The position numbers and the translations under genes were made by a program. The notes under the pieces were generated by a model. The model was not told where the DNA came from. It made no database searches and was given only the letters and a program-made list of their open reading frames with translations. Of a stretch of 21,538 bases of DNA, positions 6,820 to 13,400 are shown piece after piece. Numbering within the stretch: the first letter of the stretch is position 1; each line of letters starts with the position of its first letter. The stretch comes from a virus, in IMG/VR virus record IMGVR_UViG_3300047476_000917, positions 1-21,538 of that record; one strand, given 5' to 3'.

Positions 6820-7143
6820 TTATATTAAAGACCCCAAATGATTCTGGATTTTTATTTGTTCACCATAATTTTCTCGAACTATGTCAATATGAGCTAAAAT
6901 TGATTTCGCAAATAACTCTAAATCATTAATTGGTGCATCAAGCATTATTGTTTTTTCTTTTTCTTTACCAAATTCTATCCACAACCCAAAAATAGTTGAA
7001 TCCATTTCTTCATTAATTTCATTGTAACGAATTAACTCACGTGTGTCCGAATATACTTTTATATTAATCCCGTTTTCAAAATCTGAACTTTCAAAGTTTT
7101 CAAAGTCAATTATACATTCTGTTAATTCAATTATGTTTTTCAT
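6820..7143 (-). CDS. Acidic hypothetical protein
   Basis: 107 residues, strongly acidic (FENFESSDFENG near residues 15-26; EINEEMDS near 41-48), with probable strands such as GLWIEFGKEKEKTIMLDA and a C-terminal helix. Its start overlaps the stop of the HTH-like gene as ATGA, so the two are co-translated. Acidic small phage proteins expressed first in an early operon are sometimes host-takeover or anti-restriction factors; here that is speculation, as I recognise no family. Confidence 0.7.
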   Translation of the reverse strand: MKNIIELTECIIDFENFESSDFENGINIKVYSDTRELIRYNEINEEMDSTIFGLWIEFGKEKEKTIMLDAPINDLELFAKSILAHIDIVRENYGEQIKIQNHLGSLI

Positions 7144-7394
7144 TTGTTTAATAATTTATTATTCATTTTTAAAATTTCCTTTACATCTTCCCGAGCCAAA
7201 AAGACAGTTGCCTTGTCTTTCATCTTTTGAGTTTTAAACACTGGCATCGACTGCTCCACCAGCATCTTGTAGAAGTAATGATAACTTATGCCTGTATCAT
7301 CTGCCAATCGTTTGATTGAAACGCCTTTTTTCACCAATTCCATGTACTGATTAACTATTAATCGTACATCGTCTTTTATCTTATACTTTTTCAT
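7140..7394 (-). CDS. Small helix-turn-helix-like DNA-binding protein
   Basis: 84 residues with a basic N-terminus (MKKYKIKDDVRL). The segment KGVSIKRLADDTGISYHYFYKMLV (about 23-46) fits a helix-turn-helix: SIKRLADDTGIS as helix and turn, then a recognition helix YHYFYKML. It is the first gene after the terminator and promoter-like box and heads the operon leading to replication, so it may be an early regulator. I chose the ATG at 7392-7394; an upstream start at 7409 would run through the TAnnTTTG box. With the box only 4 bases before the ATG the message may be nearly leaderless. Its target is unknown. Confidence 0.6.
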   Translation of the reverse strand: MKKYKIKDDVRLIVNQYMELVKKGVSIKRLADDTGISYHYFYKMLVEQSMPVFKTQKMKDKATVFLAREDVKEILKMNNKLLNK

Positions 7395-7398
7395 TTGA

Positions 7399-7406
7399 CA
7401 AAAGTA
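7399..7406 (-). promoter_or_regulatory. Bacteroidota-type -7 promoter box before the HTH-like gene
   Basis: The minus strand reads TACTTTTG, an exact match to TAnnTTTG, followed by TCAA and the ATG of the HTH-like gene. It lies just downstream of a terminator, where a new promoter is expected. A TTTG sits at 7436-7439, but 29 bases away, too far for a standard -33 element, so the -33 box is not convincing. Confidence 0.5.
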
Positions 7407-7436
7407 CAAAAAATAATTTGATTTATTTTTATTAAC

Positions 7437-7464
7437 AAAAAAAATAGGACTAAAATAGCCCTAT
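7437..7464 (-). terminator. Intrinsic terminator closing the structural/lysis operon
   Basis: On the minus strand the RNA would fold AUAGGGCUA / UAGUCCUAU (7444-7464): nine consecutive pairs including one G-U wobble, with a UUU loop, followed directly by a run of seven U (7437-7443). It lies 33 bases after the end of the putative spanin gene and before the next promoter-like box, as expected for an operon boundary. Confidence 0.8.
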
Positions 7465-7496
7465 CTTTAAAATAAATAATAAAATTTAAAAAATGA

Positions 7497-7913
7497 TTAC
7501 CGTAATGTCTTTTCTAAACTATCGCAATTCACTTCCACCAGCACCGTTTTATGTTTCATAAACCCGACCTTGATTTTTTGCGGAACTTTACAAATCAAAC
7601 CATTCTTATATCTTTCTATCGCTTTGGCTTTTGCCTTAATATCTTTGCTCTGCTCCTGTACTAATATCTGAAATAATGAATCGTTGGTCTTCTTTGCTTG
7701 TATCGTTTCATCAAGCATCCTTTGCGTATCATTAGCCCATTTGTTCAATTTTGCCTTATGAACAATTAACGTGTCTCTTTCGATTAACAATTTTTTGTAC
7801 TTTCTGTTGTTGACTGTGGTATAATTCCAAAAACTAAAAAAACTAATAATTATAAATATGCCAATAGCGATATTGGTAATTACTTTACTCATTTTTAAAT
7901 AATTCCAAATCAT
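7497..7913 (-). CDS. Membrane-anchored coiled-coil protein, possible inner-membrane spanin
   Basis: 138 residues. A single N-terminal transmembrane helix (about 11-27, VITNIAIGIFIIISFFSFW) is followed by a long charged helical region (about 38-105) likely to form a coiled coil facing the periplasm, and a short C-terminal part with two Cys. This topology matches Rz-like inner-membrane spanins, which finish lysis of Gram-negative hosts, and the gene ends the lysis cassette. The start at 7913 overlaps the previous stop as ATGA; an internal Met at 7892 is an alternative. No partner outer-membrane lipoprotein (lipobox) was seen nearby, so the spanin call is tentative. Confidence 0.5.
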   Translation of the reverse strand: MIWNYLKMSKVITNIAIGIFIIISFFSFWNYTTVNNRKYKKLLIERDTLIVHKAKLNKWANDTQRMLDETIQAKKTNDSLFQILVQEQSKDIKAKAKAIERYKNGLICKVPQKIKVGFMKHKTVLVEVNCDSLEKTLR

Positions 7914-8077
7914 GTCTTTTTAAATTTTTTGATGTAACAAATTGTGCGAACCACAAAGAAAACTGTTGCTGCAATCCTACTCAATATCAATAACCCTAAA
8001 TCAATATCTTTCAAATCTGCCAATGCTATGATTCCGAACAATATAATCGATGCATATTCCCATAACCTTGATTCCAT
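7910..8077 (-). CDS. Small membrane protein of the lysis cassette (55 residues)
   Basis: 55 residues, beginning MESRLWEYASIILFGIIALA. Two hydrophobic segments (about 8-20 and 27-44, GLLILSRIAATVFFVV) are separated by an acidic loop DLKDID, and the C-terminus is basic (KKFKKT). Its ATG overlaps the previous stop as TAATG and its TGA overlaps the next ATG as ATGA, filling an otherwise empty 160-base gap. A hairpin-like two-helix topology with basic tail is seen in class II holins and antiholins, but no family is recognised. Confidence 0.65.
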   Translation of the reverse strand: MESRLWEYASIILFGIIALADLKDIDLGLLILSRIAATVFFVVRTICYIKKFKKT

Positions 8078-8283
8078 TATTTACTTTTATCGCAATTATA
8101 AACCGCTTTCTTTAAAGAATCTTTATTTACACCTTCTTTTACTGATTCTTGTATTACTGCCTTAATTATGCCCTCTGACCTCTTATATTTGTTTTGGTAG
8201 TGAATCATACTACCCAACGACAAAACTATTAACAGAATCGAAACAAACACCAAATAAGTATCTTCGCTAATTAGCTTATTCAT
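8077..8283 (-). CDS. Small single-pass membrane protein of the lysis cassette
   Basis: 68 residues from the ATG at 8281-8283: MNKLISEDTYLVFVSILLIV..., with one transmembrane helix (about 9-27) and a charged helical tail ending DKSK. I preferred this start over 8295 because a GGAG Shine-Dalgarno-like box (8290-8293) sits 6 bases before it, one of the few in the window, and overlap with the holin-candidate gene falls to 8 bases. It could be a spanin- or antiholin-like accessory; no motif decides. Confidence 0.65.
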   Translation of the reverse strand: MNKLISEDTYLVFVSILLIVLSLGSMIHYQNKYKRSEGIIKAVIQESVKEGVNKDSLKKAVYNCDKSK

Positions 8284-8671
8284 TATTTTCTCCATTGCCT
8301 ATGGTTTTAATTACACTGTCCTTAAATGCTAATATTATATCCCAAGTAAATTGTGCAATGGATCCCATACCTAAGCCAACCAATAACTCTGGAAGATTAA
8401 ATCTCGATGAAATAAAAGGTGTGCTGATATACGCTAAAATAGCACCCAATGTTATTGATGCAACCCAGTACCAAACTGGCTCTTCTTTGCTTTTGACTTT
8501 CTTTCTAAATTCGCTTACTTTTCTCGAACCAATGGCAATGGCTTGACCGCCTGCCCCGACAATAGCATGAGCAATGTTATATTCAGCTAAAAATGCAAAT
8601 GTAGTTGCCGGTACACTTAACGTAATAAACGCATCTACCAACTTGCCAAATACCTGCTCTTTTGTTACCAT
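8276..8671 (-). CDS. Putative holin
   Basis: 131 residues with a hydrophobic, amphipathic N-terminal third (about 12-48), a basic linker (SRKVSEFRKKVKSKEE), and two good transmembrane helices (about 66-86 and 93-115), then a short charged tail. Size, topology and place between the endolysin and other small membrane proteins fit a phage holin that permeabilises the inner membrane so the endolysin can act. The start is immediately after the stop of the homing endonuclease (TAA-ATG with no gap). Family not named with certainty. Confidence 0.6.
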   Translation of the reverse strand: MVTKEQVFGKLVDAFITLSVPATTFAFLAEYNIAHAIVGAGGQAIAIGSRKVSEFRKKVKSKEEPVWYWVASITLGAILAYISTPFISSRFNLPELLVGLGMGSIAQFTWDIILAFKDSVIKTIGNGENNE

Positions 8672-9184
8672 TTATTTTAACTCTTTAAATTCGAAGTGCA
8701 TACCAAAAATAGGTCTTTTATGTTTTATGGACCAGCTAACAGAACCTGAACCTAAGTTTAATTTTCTTGATGCTTCAGATTGTGAACCATAAATCACTCC
8801 AGTTTCTACACAAATAACAGACATGCTTCTATTATGGTCTTTTCCAAATTTGCCTTTATAATGCAAAGGTTTATATTTCTTTAATCCCATACTATATGCA
8901 TGTTTAATGTTTTCAGACTGTGTATTCCATTCTAAATTTTTTAAACTAATATCTGTTTTAATTCCGTTTTTATGATTAACAAAATCTTTGCCTTTTACAT
9001 GAGGAATAAATGCAAAAGCTATCGCCCTGTGAGTAAAATAACTTTTATTTCTAATATTGACAAAATAATAGCCACTATTTGATATAGATTTTTTTAATAT
9101 CTTACCTTTTGGGCTTTTTATGTCTCCGTATTTATTTACCAAATAATCTTTTGGCAAGTAATTTGTTTGTATAAAATTTTCCAT
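8672..9184 (-). CDS. Free-standing HNH homing endonuclease (NUMOD-type)
   Basis: 170 residues with the layout of phage HNH homing nucleases. Residues about 10-50 (VNKYGDIKSPKGKIL...GYYFVNI) resemble the NUMOD4 region. The HNH core follows: THRAIAFAFIP (H52), FVNHKNGIKTD (N70-H71), NLEWNTQSEN (N83-N92). The C-terminal part, YGSQSEASRKLNLGSGSVSW (about 132-151), is a NUMOD1-like DNA-binding helix-turn-helix. Such enzymes cut cognate phages lacking the gene and so spread. It sits between the endolysin and the holin candidate, both of which appear intact, and has its own promoter-like box 3 bases before the ATG. Confidence 0.88.
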   Translation of the reverse strand: MENFIQTNYLPKDYLVNKYGDIKSPKGKILKKSISNSGYYFVNIRNKSYFTHRAIAFAFIPHVKGKDFVNHKNGIKTDISLKNLEWNTQSENIKHAYSMGLKKYKPLHYKGKFGKDHNRSMSVICVETGVIYGSQSEASRKLNLGSGSVSWSIKHKRPIFGMHFEFKELK

Positions 9185-9187
9185 TTA

Positions 9188-9195
9188 CAAATATA
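9188..9195 (-). promoter_or_regulatory. TAnnTTTG promoter-like box before the HNH endonuclease
   Basis: The minus strand reads TATATTTG then TAA then the ATG of the HNH gene, the same arrangement as before the HTH-like gene. It suggests the homing endonuclease can be transcribed separately from the lysis operon, perhaps on a nearly leaderless message. No clear -33 TTG is seen at the usual distance, and AT-rich DNA gives some chance matches. Confidence 0.4.
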
Positions 9196-9215
9196 CAAAA
9201 TAAATATTAGCTATA

Positions 9216-9261
9216 AATGCATTCAGGAAATTATTGTAAGTGCAATATTTCCCAATGCATT
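9216..9261 (-). other. Long stem-loop across the 3' end of the endolysin gene
   Basis: AATGCATT (9216-9223), GGAAA (9226-9230) and TATTG (9232-9236) pair with CAATA (9243-9247), TTTCC (9248-9252) and AATGCATT (9254-9261), giving 18 base pairs interrupted by a CA/C internal loop and one bulged T, with a 6-base loop. The endolysin stop codon lies inside the stem. There is no U-run after it on the transcribed strand, so it is not a standard terminator; RNA processing, mRNA 3'-end protection or partial termination are possible. Confidence 0.65.
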
Positions 9262-9698
9262 GCATCAAACCCTTTTTCTTTCCCTTGATTTATAAAGCCA
9301 TTTTTATAGTAAATATCTATCATCGGCTTATATTCCTGTTTAAAAAATTGTGAATTTTTCCACGTCATTTTCAACCCGTTCTTAATTGGGTTTAAATCTT
9401 CTGCAATGCCCCAGCTATGCCTTGACCAATCCGAACCACCTCGCATTTTCCTAAAGTTATAACACCCACCAAAAATATCAATCTCCAGCCTTTTAATTTC
9501 CTCAATGCCGTAATGCTCCAATATCTCGGTGTGAATCTTTTGAAATACTGGAGCAACTAATTTGTGACATTGCATCTTATTGGTAAGTGCCTTTAAATCC
9601 CAAGCAATACGCCTTGAATATGGCATAGTGACAGTGATTAAGTTTCTGTCATCTCCTGCTTTGCCAAAGATTGATATTATTTGTTTGGTACTTAGCAT
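9231..9698 (-). CDS. Endolysin, M15 family zinc peptidase
   Basis: 155 residues. The M15 zinc-peptidase signature is clear: SRHSWGIAED with H94 and D101 as metal ligands (the SxHxxGxAxD motif), and near the C-terminus FDAMHWE with D145 as the likely catalytic acid and H148 as the third ligand. M15 enzymes of this size act as phage lysins that cut the peptide stem or cross-bridge of peptidoglycan (D-Ala-D-Ala/L-Ala-D-Glu type). There is no signal peptide, so export would need the holin. Its ATG overlaps the previous stop as TAATG. The final codons lie in a long stem-loop. Confidence 0.88.
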   Translation of the reverse strand: MLSTKQIISIFGKAGDDRNLITVTMPYSRRIAWDLKALTNKMQCHKLVAPVFQKIHTEILEHYGIEEIKRLEIDIFGGCYNFRKMRGGSDWSRHSWGIAEDLNPIKNGLKMTWKNSQFFKQEYKPMIDIYYKNGFINQGKEKGFDAMHWEILHLQ

Positions 9699-10054
9699 TA
9701 TTCAGGTACAATTATAATATTACCGATTAAATTTTCTGCTGCCCATTTGGCATCTACTTGTCCTCCGTTTTGTAGGCTTATAACCTCTCCTTTAATATTA
9801 CCAATATCGTTGATATTAACATAAAAGAAATTTCCTTCAAACTCTTTGTTTAAAAAAACATCCAATGCCTCTTCTTCATCCTTGCTTTCCTTTTCTTTAG
9901 AAATTTTCTTTATCTCATTTTCATCAGCAATAATCTTTTCAGCTATTTGCGATTGGTTTTTTCTTAACTGCAATGCCGTTAATAATCCCACTTGATTAGA
10001 ATAACTTAACAAGCTTGCAATGATACACTTTTCTTTTGCTTCTCTGTTTGTCAT
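9698..10054 (-). CDS. Hypothetical protein between fibre and endolysin genes
   Basis: 118 residues. The N-terminal half (about 1-65) is helical and charged, with a coiled-coil-like run (AEKIIADENEIKKISKEKES), while the C-terminal part (NFFYVNINDIGNIKGEVISL...NIIIVPE) is likely beta. It is 3 bases from its upstream neighbour and overlaps the endolysin start. Its place after the tail fibre gene suggests a minor structural or fibre-accessory protein, but I recognise no family. Confidence 0.7.
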   Translation of the reverse strand: MTNREAKEKCIIASLLSYSNQVGLLTALQLRKNQSQIAEKIIADENEIKKISKEKESKDEEEALDVFLNKEFEGNFFYVNINDIGNIKGEVISLQNGGQVDAKWAAENLIGNIIIVPE

Positions 10055-10057
10055 AAA

Positions 10058-10447
10058 TTAAATTTTAGTTTCTACAAAAGTAGCATTTAAATTTGATTTT
10101 AGTAGAACGTAACCATACATTGAAGCCAATTTTTCGGCATTTAATTCTATTTCGTCAAGTGTTCCATAATCAAGACCTTTTAAAATAGATTTAACATTAA
10201 GCGTTGCCTCCTCTTCTGTTTCTCCTCCTGCTACTAATTTCTGAACCAAGTCATTGCTTGAAAAATACCTTGCGTTATAAAGCGAGCCTGAATCTTGCAC
10301 AAATGCAATCCATAAATCCCTTACTTTAAATTCGTTTCTGCTGTATTCCACTGCTGAAACTGCACTGCACATTATGCCGACTATTGTTCTTGTTTCTCCT
10401 ACCTCGTCAGTAAATGACTTTGGCTCTACATCCCAAATGTACCCCAT
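10058..10447 (-). CDS. Hypothetical protein following the tail fibre gene
   Basis: 129 residues, MGYIWDVEPKSFTDEVGETR..., a soluble mixed alpha/beta protein with a hydrophobic core segment (TIVGIMCSAVSAVEYS) and a helical second half (about residues 64-115). It starts 11 bases after the stop of the tail-fibre gene, in the late operon. It could be a fibre assembly protein or minor virion protein, as often found after long fibre genes; no motif confirms this. Confidence 0.7.
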   Translation of the reverse strand: MGYIWDVEPKSFTDEVGETRTIVGIMCSAVSAVEYSRNEFKVRDLWIAFVQDSGSLYNARYFSSNDLVQKLVAGGETEEEATLNVKSILKGLDYGTLDEIELNAEKLASMYGYVLLKSNLNATFVETKI

Positions 10448-10458
10448 GGTTTTTTTGT

Positions 10459-13400
10459 TTAAATTACTAAATAATTTCTTGAATCGATTGGACTTGTATA
10501 AACTTGTACTTTTTGCATTACAAAAGCATTTTTGCTTGTATCATAAGAAAATAAAACTTTATCACCTAAGGCAGGTGTATAAGGTTCAGCCCAGAAGTCA
10601 GAATAAGCTAACTTAAAAGGTGTACCATTTATATTTACAAATCCATTTGAGTATGGATATCCAACATTAATATTATTACCTAACAAGTCTAAATCTGACC
10701 CAGCTTTTAATTGTAATTTGTTTCCAGTAGTAGAATTAAATGACAGTACATCAAGCAAATGAATAATATTTCCTTTTAAAGTTCCTGAATTATTTTTAAA
10801 GTGTAAATATGGATTTGTTTCACTGTTTTGAAGATTAAAAGTTTTCTCAAAAGAAGTACTTCCAGCTGCTAAAACTTGGTCAATATTGCCAATGCCACCG
10901 CTTGGTATTGCTTGCTTACCAAATAGCCCATCGTTGTCAACAGTTACCATTTGTAAACCTGCACCACCTAATTCGTTAACTCTAAAATAACCATCTGAAA
11001 CCAAAACGCCAAAACTACCTCTTGCTTGAAGTTCTAAATTTCCATTAACTGATTCAATAAATCCAAGCCCACCTGATGCACCGATGTTAAAATTAGAACT
11101 TGAGGCTGTAATTGAAATATACCTATTGTCTTTCCATGTAAATCCAGCACTTCCACTTAATACATTAGTTAAACTTCCAAAACCTATTTGTGTACTTGCT
11201 AAAGTACCACCTGATATAGTTGTCCAAGTTGGATTTGCTGATGATCCTTGACTGGTTAAAACTTGTCCTGCAGTTCCATAATTTCCGTTTAGCCCAATCT
11301 TAAATTCAAAATTATGATTGTTTTTTGAAATAACCGTAGTTCCATATAAATTCAAACTTGTGCTTGGTACATCAATCCAATAAGCCCCTGCTACATTACC
11401 CATAAGCATATATCCTGTGCCACCATCGATTTTAAGGTTACCTGTTAAATGTAACTTGGTATCTGGTACAGAATTGCCAATTCCAATATTTGTTCCATTG
11501 TCAAATATTTGAGAATTACTAATGCCTCCACTTGTATTTGACCATTTTGTTACAAAATTAGCCACCCCTGTGTTGTACGGTAAATATCTTGTAGTTCCTA
11601 ATAATGCGGTTAAATCAGAAACTACAACCGCTGTGTTGCCTGTTACCCTTCCTTTTGTATCAATAGTAATTTTCCTAAAGTCGCCTGTATTTGCTTGCGT
11701 TACAGTTGCCAAAGTTGCTGCTACACTACCCGACCCACTTGCTGTTACATCTCCTGTAAGTGCTGTAATGCCTCCTGTTGGCAATGTCGCCCAAGTTTGG
11801 TCACCTCTTAAATAAGTACTTGCTGATGCTGTGCCTGATGCCAAGCGAGCTGTTGCAATGACACCCGAAACAATATCTGTGGCTGCGTGTGTGTGTGCTG
11901 ATGGTGCAAACGTTGCAGGTACTCCAGTAAGTTTTGACCAAGCTAATGATGTAATCCATGACGGGTTTGAATAAAGTACTGAAGTTAAAACGAATCTTTC
12001 ATCTGATTCCGTTTTTGTATAAGCATCCGTTATGGCATACCCTGCCAATGTTGTCGGGTTTGTTCCTGCGGTTACTCGTCCATAGGTATCAACTGTTACA
12101 CTGCGATAAGTTCCTATTGTAACCAAACCGCTTTTTTGGTTTATAACTCCGAACCCATTAATCTCCATTGTTGTGCCAACAGCAACAAATCCTAATTGGG
12201 TTGTGGTAGCCCTAAAGTCAATTAAGTTTCCAGAATGGACAAAAGTATTAGTGTCTAAACTCCAAGTGTTTGCTGCAGTTTTTCTTAATATCCCATTAGT
12301 ACCTGTTAATGCTCCAATGGCTGTTAAGTCAGCATCTAAACCTTGATACCTTCCATCCGATTCTGTCTTGGTATAAGCATCCGTTATGCCATAACCTGAT
12401 ATAGTTGTCGGGTTAGTTCCTGATGTTACTAATCCTTTTGCATTGATTGTAACACTTCTGTACGTTCCTGCGGTGGCTACATTTGCAAGTGTCAAAGCTA
12501 TTGATGTAGTTCCTGACCCAGTAGCATCACCAGTTATTGATATGCTTTGGTTTGCCGTTAAATAACTATTTGTATCTAATGACCATGTATTTGCTGCGGT
12601 CTTTCTTAATATTCCACTTGTTCCTGCTAATCCAGCTATTGAGGTCAAATCTGCATCAAGCGGTTGATACGTTGTTGATGCCGTACTTGCTAATAAATAC
12701 CCTGCACTTGCATGATTACCCCAGCCAAATGCCGTATTCCAATTAGCTGAATTGTTAGTAACATAAGTTATTGTTCCAGCAGTTGATAATACTAATCCTG
12801 TTCCGCTTAATGTGGCTTGTTTACTATCTAATGCTGTTTGTAATCCTGATGTCTTAGCAATGCTTAAAGCGGCATCGGCTATTGCTGTGGTTATTGCAGT
12901 CGTTCCCGAACCTGTTACTATACCACTTAGCGTAATCGTTTGATTGCCCGAAATCCTCGCGTTTATCTGACCTTGCAACTTCTCCAAAGCAACCTCCAAA
13001 GAATCTGTATTAAGTACACTTGAATTTTCACCTGTAACAAAACCACTAACTATTTGAGCATAAAAATCAGTAATTCCATACCCCGAAACCGTTGTTGGGT
13101 TTGTTCCTGCGATTACCAAACCTTTGGCGTTAATTGTAACGCTCCTATAAGTGCCTGCTGTTACTACGTCTGCCAAAGTCAAAGCCCCTGACACATCGGC
13201 ACTTCCATTAAAAGTAACCGACCAAGTGCCATCGCCAGTCATTGCGATGTTTCTTGCAGTAGCTAGTAACCCTGCCGAACCTGTTGTGTTTTGGTTTAAT
13301 GTTGGGATATCTGATGCAATTAAGTTTGTTGCCGCAGTAACTAGCCCTTTTGCATTAACTGTTACCTTTGTAAATTGCCCAACGTTGCTATTAACTGTTG

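Follow-up and report, generated by a model that had tools for sequence, protein, structure and literature searches.

A hairpin junction between a phage lysin gene and an HNH gene is probably the internal seam of a terminus-replacing homing cassette

In the 21,538-nucleotide stretch of viral DNA analysed here (IMG/VR record IMGVR_UViG_3300047476_000917, positions 1 to 21,538; the whole stretch is called the window below), a hairpin lies between an endolysin gene and an HNH endonuclease gene, and we conclude that this junction is probably the internal seam of an HNH homing cassette that replaces the terminus of the gene it enters. The unit is about 670 bp long, stands at the codons of the conserved MH(F/W)E motif of the lysin, and consists of a substitute lysin 3′ end, a hairpin spacer, and the HNH gene, which comparison of sequences shows to be one cassette. 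A preliminary description of this DNA had placed a homing-type HNH gene after the endolysin gene, with a hairpin between the two and upstream of the HNH start codon, and this layout is right. The check that it proposed, a look at the same junction in relatives without the HNH gene, exposed the insertion within the lysin 3′ end; in those relatives there is neither intergenic space nor hairpin.

Four close relatives (L003-L006), whose lysins are 89-91% identical to that of the window in the best segment over residues 1-150, have no HNH gene. Their lysin ends MHFEFKEFK and a stop, followed at once by ATGGTAAC of a holin-like gene, and a more distant relative (L007, 75%) is also without the HNH gene and has a lysin ending MHFEF. 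In the window, this native end is displaced about 560 bp downstream, where GMHFEFKELK and a stop are followed by ATGGTAAC, as in the relatives. The final nine codons and the stop of the HNH gene (MHFEFKELK; 8672-8701, minus strand) match L003-L006 at 29 of 30 bases. The HNH gene thus sits within the lysin 3′ end, the lysin has a foreign end, and the native lysin end now forms the C-terminus of the endonuclease. The holin-like gene (8276-8671, minus strand) starts right after the TAA in the window and in the empty relatives, and its protein is 98-99% identical in the four empty relatives and one carrier. It has no Pfam or PHROG match, so we call it holin-like as a guess based on where it lies and how small it is.

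The lysin gene (9698-9231, minus strand; Pfam Peptidase_M15_4) has a native-like part and a substituted one. Codons 1-110 (9369-9698, minus strand) are 96.1% identical to those of the empty allele L003, with 98 codons the same, 10 silently changed, and 2 replaced, whereas the cassette-borne substitute end, codons 111-155 and the stop (9231-9368, minus strand), which ends MHWEILHLQ, has 18 codons the same, 10 silently changed, and 17 replaced. Identity to L003 is 71.9% over codons 111-148, so that the replacement starts near codon 111. Among 83 distinct lysins, a set that does not include that of the window, MHWE is present in one, that of the carrier L002, and MHFE in 75. No donor of the foreign end was found, and codons 111-148 are no closer to L007 (67.5%) than to L003 (71.9%). 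The substituted lysin keeps the catalytic-motif residues D145, M147, H148, and E150, and is presumably still functional. Its end reads as a foreign one and not as a purely silent respelling, which makes it the least pure of the cases described here.

The unity of the cassette is seen best in a comparison with L002, the only other carrier among the 24, 16, and 80 loci listed (the last being the best 80 of 587). From 9378 to 8706, the window and L002 differ at a single one of 673 columns, vs. 77 of 1195 columns in the flanks. From this comparison, the whole cassette spans approximately 8706-9378 (minus strand), with its left border between 9369 and 9386 and its right border at or just past 8702; the tips of the HNH protein past the right border differ between the carriers (KELK vs. 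NQFK). Two histories would fit such a pattern: the cassette may have moved recently into the two alleles, or it may have been inserted once, longer ago, with the flanks exchanged afterwards.

The HNH gene is an ORF that as a whole spans 8672-9184 (minus strand), of which 8702-9184 (minus strand) has no equivalent in the four empty alleles and is the part that the cassette brought. The protein matches HNH_3 above cut-off and an I-TevI DNA-binding model below cut-off, is assigned to PHROG 59 (HNH endonuclease), and has the pairing of an HNH domain with a NUMOD-like DNA-binding C-terminal part by which we class it as I-HmuI-type. In its AlphaFold model (pLDDT 92.3, pTM 0.64, 49 sequences), the captured lysin residues FEF form the last strand, and the best solved match to the model is I-HmuI (PDB 1u3e, E 6.8e-11), so the lysin end may take the place of the terminus that such domains normally have. 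The likeness to I-HmuI is in the predicted fold, with 25% identity and a TM of 0.52 over the whole chain. I-HmuI is encoded within an intron, whereas the HNH gene of the window is not in one. A search for relatives of the HNH protein in genome contigs gave two distant matches only.

A similar arrangement recurs at other phage genes. At a distant lysin (L079), an HNH gene that belongs to this family (51% identity) begins one base past the lysin stop, and the two ends are alike, AMHFEINS in the lysin and GMHFKINQ in the HNH protein. The mirror survey covered four sets of HNH loci with 187 HNH ORFs in 148 clusters, 135 of them with an upstream ORF, and the lists of relatives used were the best 80 of 587, 529, 566, and 596. 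The null was taken from clusters (5,996 random pairs; maximum 50, 99% at 38), since near-duplicate loci had inflated it to a maximum of 77. Three clusters are far above the null, at a DnaB helicase (75), a terminase (72), and an SNF2-type helicase (72). Scores at or near the null maximum were left uncounted: L204 (51), L184 (50), L212 (45), L176 (44), and L153 (41) were judged by eye to be chance between odd frames or helix-turn-helix resemblance. The window cassette itself fails this test, with a score of 7 for the carrier L002, and was detected through its empty alleles.

With the score anchored at the ends, 9 of 127 HNH-downstream pairs reach at least 29 vs. none of 523 neighboring non-HNH pairs (best 28); this cut-off was chosen after the scores had been seen, and at 33 the counts are 4 of 127 and 0 of 523. 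Anchored scores of 29-31 are weak singly, being found in 0.2-0.35% of random pairs. Two of the nine pairs, L184 and L279 (31 each), are doubtful and perhaps reflect helix-turn-helix resemblance, two others (L187 and L151) are the same gene, and the nine thus include at most six independent genes that are likely cases. The architecture was found at none of 10 HNH loci of nine named phages (one of these loci being an intron) and is thus a minority habit.

Two of the other genes allow the substituted end to be compared with empty alleles codon by codon. Among the terminase relatives listed, 78 of 80 are without the HNH gene and 2 have it. When the terminase carrier is set against L292, codons 223-244 are divided into 6 the same, 14 silent, and 2 replaced, as compared with 180, 42, and 0 for codons 1-222, and the native terminase end now makes up the 3′-terminal stretch of the HNH gene, where it is read in another frame and gives the HNH stop codon. 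At an unnamed gene (carriers L370-L373), the HNH gene is present in 4 of the 12 relatives listed and in none of the other 8, 5 of which are close (77-86% identical). The carriers end in RKDERLS (in L370 this end of the unnamed gene is at 1930-1953). Compared with L375, 6 of these 7 codons differ, all of them silently, and compared with L374 there are five silent changes and one replacement; the native spelling of RKDERLS ends the HNH gene. For both sets of relatives, the presence of the HNH gene was scored with a short regular expression over at most 700 nt past the stop, and some contigs are too short to cover all of this; in the 78 terminase relatives scored as empty, the bases past the stop differ from those of the carriers. 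The terminase locus L152:2340-3060 (also L154 and L158) holds a terminase large-subunit gene, respelled last codons, a spacer with a TATATTTG box, and the HNH gene.

The hairpin of the window lies at 9216-9261 on the minus strand and spans the lysin stop codon, as the preliminary description had claimed of a long imperfect hairpin with matching ends. It has 19 pairs, two one-base bulges, a six-base loop, and AATGCATT at each outer end, and the lysin TAA (9233-9231) is inside its 3′ arm. The minimum free energy of −16.9 kcal/mol is matched by none of 200 dinucleotide shuffles (z −4.47) of a 52-nt stretch that was picked after the hairpin had been seen; in a 101-nt frame around the hairpin, 16 of 200 shuffles are equally stable (z −1.54), which is not exceptional. 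The hairpin is the strongest at any of the 23 stop codons tested in the window (−16.9 vs. −7.7 for the next best), and its best 55-nt stretch ranks 19th of 4,297 overlapping stretches window-wide. L002, the sole other carrier found, has the same 19 pairs, and its one base change turns the loop-closing G-C into a wobble-compatible G-U (−14.8).

Both the hairpin and the TATATTTG box are absent from the four empty alleles L003-L006, so the hairpin belongs to the cassette, in which it stands between the replacement lysin end and the HNH gene. The cassette architecture does not require it, since there is no notable hairpin at L079 (z +0.51) or L133 (z +0.82); in the spacer of the terminase cassette, RNA structure is predicted but unremarkable (z −1.23, 26 of 200 shuffles). 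We find that the hairpin of the window is not a canonical terminator and does not lock the start codon. The role that we prefer for it is to protect the endolysin mRNA, and we put forward only tentatively that it could serve the lysin message as a 3′ UTR brought by the cassette, which would slow decay of the message or uncouple the HNH gene. Elsewhere in the window, downstream of the lysis genes, a terminator-like stem with a T-run was called at 7440-7468 on the minus strand.

The TATATTTG sequence, a Bacteroidota −7-like box identified from the sequence and a pattern scan (9188-9195, minus strand), has the position that was claimed for it, with its bases 9195-9188 lying 20 bases past the hairpin and 3 bases 5′ of the ATG at 9184. 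It had been proposed as the HNH gene's own promoter; the box is there, but its placement and frequency weaken the case for that use. The TAnnTTTG box of Flavobacterium spans −12 to −5 of the transcript start, and when this spacing is applied to TATATTTG, the predicted start is base 9183, within the HNH ATG, so that a promoter here would require leaderless translation. Moreover, the two strands of the window together have 51 occurrences of TANNTTTG vs. 36.4 expected (sd 5.9; 51 was reached by 0 of 100 shuffles), and a single box therefore tells little alone. At the −33 place upstream of the box, no TTTG was seen by eye; the −33 motif TTTG is reported to be much less evident in F. johnsoniae. 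That Flavobacterium promoter rules apply at all is suggested by the nearest phage lysins, 146 of the 167 matching records being from Flavobacterium phages, every one at less than 60% identity. A sigma-70-type scan gave a weak 9-of-12 site at 9217-9190 on the same strand, over the bases of the box (25 such sites vs. 20.9 expected). An HNH promoter at TATATTTG is thus unlikely, and it stays conceivable because leaderless mRNAs exist (5.5% in an F. psychrophilum set).

These features bear on two readings of the junction that concern expression. The junction could be regulated as in T4, with the hairpin holding down HNH expression from long transcripts and a promoter at TATATTTG allowing separate expression. 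The preliminary description was right that such hairpins are a known feature of T4 homing endonuclease genes, and the available text of PMC2988022 describes how they are paired with promoters; the TATATTTG box and the sigma-70-type site would supply the second element here. However, the hairpin ends 31 bases 5′ of the HNH ATG (9184) and leaves the start codon open, so the HNH start region is not sequestered, and the promoter meets the objections of spacing and frequency given above. We regard T4-type regulation as quite unlikely, and as it concerns control only, it is compatible with the cassette reading. A partial transcription terminator between the lysin and HNH genes, also raised in the preliminary description, is less probable still: a stable stem-loop does stand directly behind an ORF, but the sequence has no T-tract 3′ of the stem, and a terminator scan of 7001-11000 called two terminator-like sites without making any call at the hairpin.

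Other readings concern the insertion itself. Because the lysin end is foreign rather than respelled, a plain free-standing homing endonuclease gene with ordinary co-conversion is a live rival for the lysin-end part, in which the HNH gene stood behind the lysin gene of a diverged donor phage and homing copied a stretch of that lysin gene along with it, as passenger DNA without a function in the element. Co-conversion of flanks is normal in phage homing, as far as the account in PMC2988022 goes, and the many replaced residues of the foreign lysin end are what a diverged homologue would give. By itself, however, co-conversion does not account for the retained native lysin end that is fused to the HNH gene, nor does it explain why the arrangement recurs elsewhere with the last 7 to 22 codons changed almost exclusively at silent positions. 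On balance, we think it unlikely. A self-splicing intron or an intein in the lysin gene, whose removal would restore the native end, is very improbable. The native lysin end does stand beyond the insert, but the lysin has a complete substitute end, and a stop codon closes the lysin frame, so there is no intein. Rfam gave no match at the gathering score window-wide, and within 8600-9800 a search with E up to 10 yielded nothing but weak, unrelated matches. Besides the ORF about 75 nt are left, a space in which a group I core would not fit. We also rejected a ribosomal bypass like that of T4 gene 60, since the native end lies about 560 nt away behind a complete ORF.

In the reading that we prefer, a homing cassette that replaces the lysin terminus, the HNH enzyme would nick or cut the lysin gene of a co-infecting phage at its intact 3′ end, and the cassette would then be copied in during repair; both cleavage and homing are putative activities of this HNH protein. 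The substitute end would keep the lysin working while no longer matching the target, and each target would provide the endonuclease gene with the 3′ end that it needs. Silent change could be selected through escape from cutting, through avoidance of loss between direct repeats, or through both. Whether phages have a natural home-and-rescue class of HNH elements, which hit the 3′ ends of conserved genes and carry respelled ends under silent-change selection, with the hairpin of the window as the substitute 3′ UTR of this one cassette, is to our minds evenly balanced. In this wider proposal, the targets would be lysin, terminase, DnaB, SNF2-type helicase, and other genes, each of which would go on working, and the respelled end would avoid re-cutting and repeat-mediated loss; in several cases the displaced native end gives the endonuclease its last residues or its stop codon.

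The closest known parallels are the C-terminus-carrying mobile ORFs (mORFs) of fungal mitochondria, found in Allomyces atp6 and in Glomus atp6, atp9, cox2, and nad3 (PMC3630166). According to the available text of that work, mORFs resemble the window cassette in three respects: an endonuclease ORF has entered a conserved gene in its 3′ part and supplies that gene with a foreign C-terminus, the original end now lies downstream, and similarity is higher in the protein than in the DNA. The window cassette likewise has an in-frame substitute end upstream of the ORF and the native end displaced downstream of it, and its mobility is suggested by the sequence discordance between insert and flanks (1/673 vs. 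77/1195). mORFs encode LAGLIDADG or GIY-YIG enzymes in mitochondria, whereas the enzyme here is an HNH protein in a virus record, so we say that the cassette works like an mORF and not that it is one. Unlike mORFs as far as they are described there, several phage cases have the native end fused in frame to the endonuclease or giving its stop, and the substitute ends are as short as 7 codons.

Within phages, the nearest relatives in arrangement are the free-standing insertions of the T4 group, such as Aeh1 mobE in nrdA, T4 mobA at gene 60/39, and seg43(25) (PMC2988022). They share with the window a free-standing homing endonuclease gene in a conserved phage gene and RNA hairpins near the junction, but as that account has it, they split the gene into separate polypeptides, whereas the window lysin is one piece with a substitute end. 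The T4 hairpins mostly sequester the RBS, which the window hairpin does not; seg43(25) of Aeromonas phage 25 has a predicted hairpin upstream of the RBS that is described as not sequestering it. In the mycobacteriophage ShiLan (PMC11855218), an HNH ORF was likewise inserted into a methylase gene without a detectable intron or intein, but the insert is read through in the frame of the host gene, with a hidden HNH, and the available text describes no substitute terminus. The engineered HomeR drive (PMC7968924) is similar in its 3′ coding-end target, re-coded end (22 or 27 residues in the text available), and own 3′ UTR; it is, however, a designed CRISPR drive in flies, whereas the arrangement here is natural, with cutting and rescue putative. 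As far as open-access texts reach, we found no account of phage homing endonuclease genes that carry substitute 3′ ends.

If this reading is true, a selfish endonuclease can occupy a conserved gene by way of a substitute end, without an intron, an intein, or splitting of the gene. The recurrence at unrelated genes, two of them with almost only silent ends, would then make a testable case for a natural counterpart of engineered home-and-rescue drives, and the cassettes would offer a possible route by which phage lineages exchange the 3′ ends of conserved genes. Annotators would have to expect that phage lysins, terminases, and helicases beside HNH genes can have swapped C-termini, as can the HNH genes themselves.

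The loci surveyed also differ among themselves in form. At L029:2469-3465 (also L030-L032 and L041), a small lysin-like gene ends VHISYNHGKNRKQVLRIK, and an HNH gene follows 55 bases on; no mirrored ends were seen there by eye. At the DnaB locus (L180:1036-1100), the HNH frame closes at a stop of its own and the native helicase end is left behind it as a remnant, whereas in the lysin and SNF2 cases the two are fused. At L133:2-3106, an SNF2-type helicase gene has both a LAGLIDADG (intein-like) insert and a 3′ HNH cassette with the mirrored ends DTTEETLIDSVITLFSKQ and DQTEETLIDSVMTLFSK, which places two kinds of mobile element within one phage gene.
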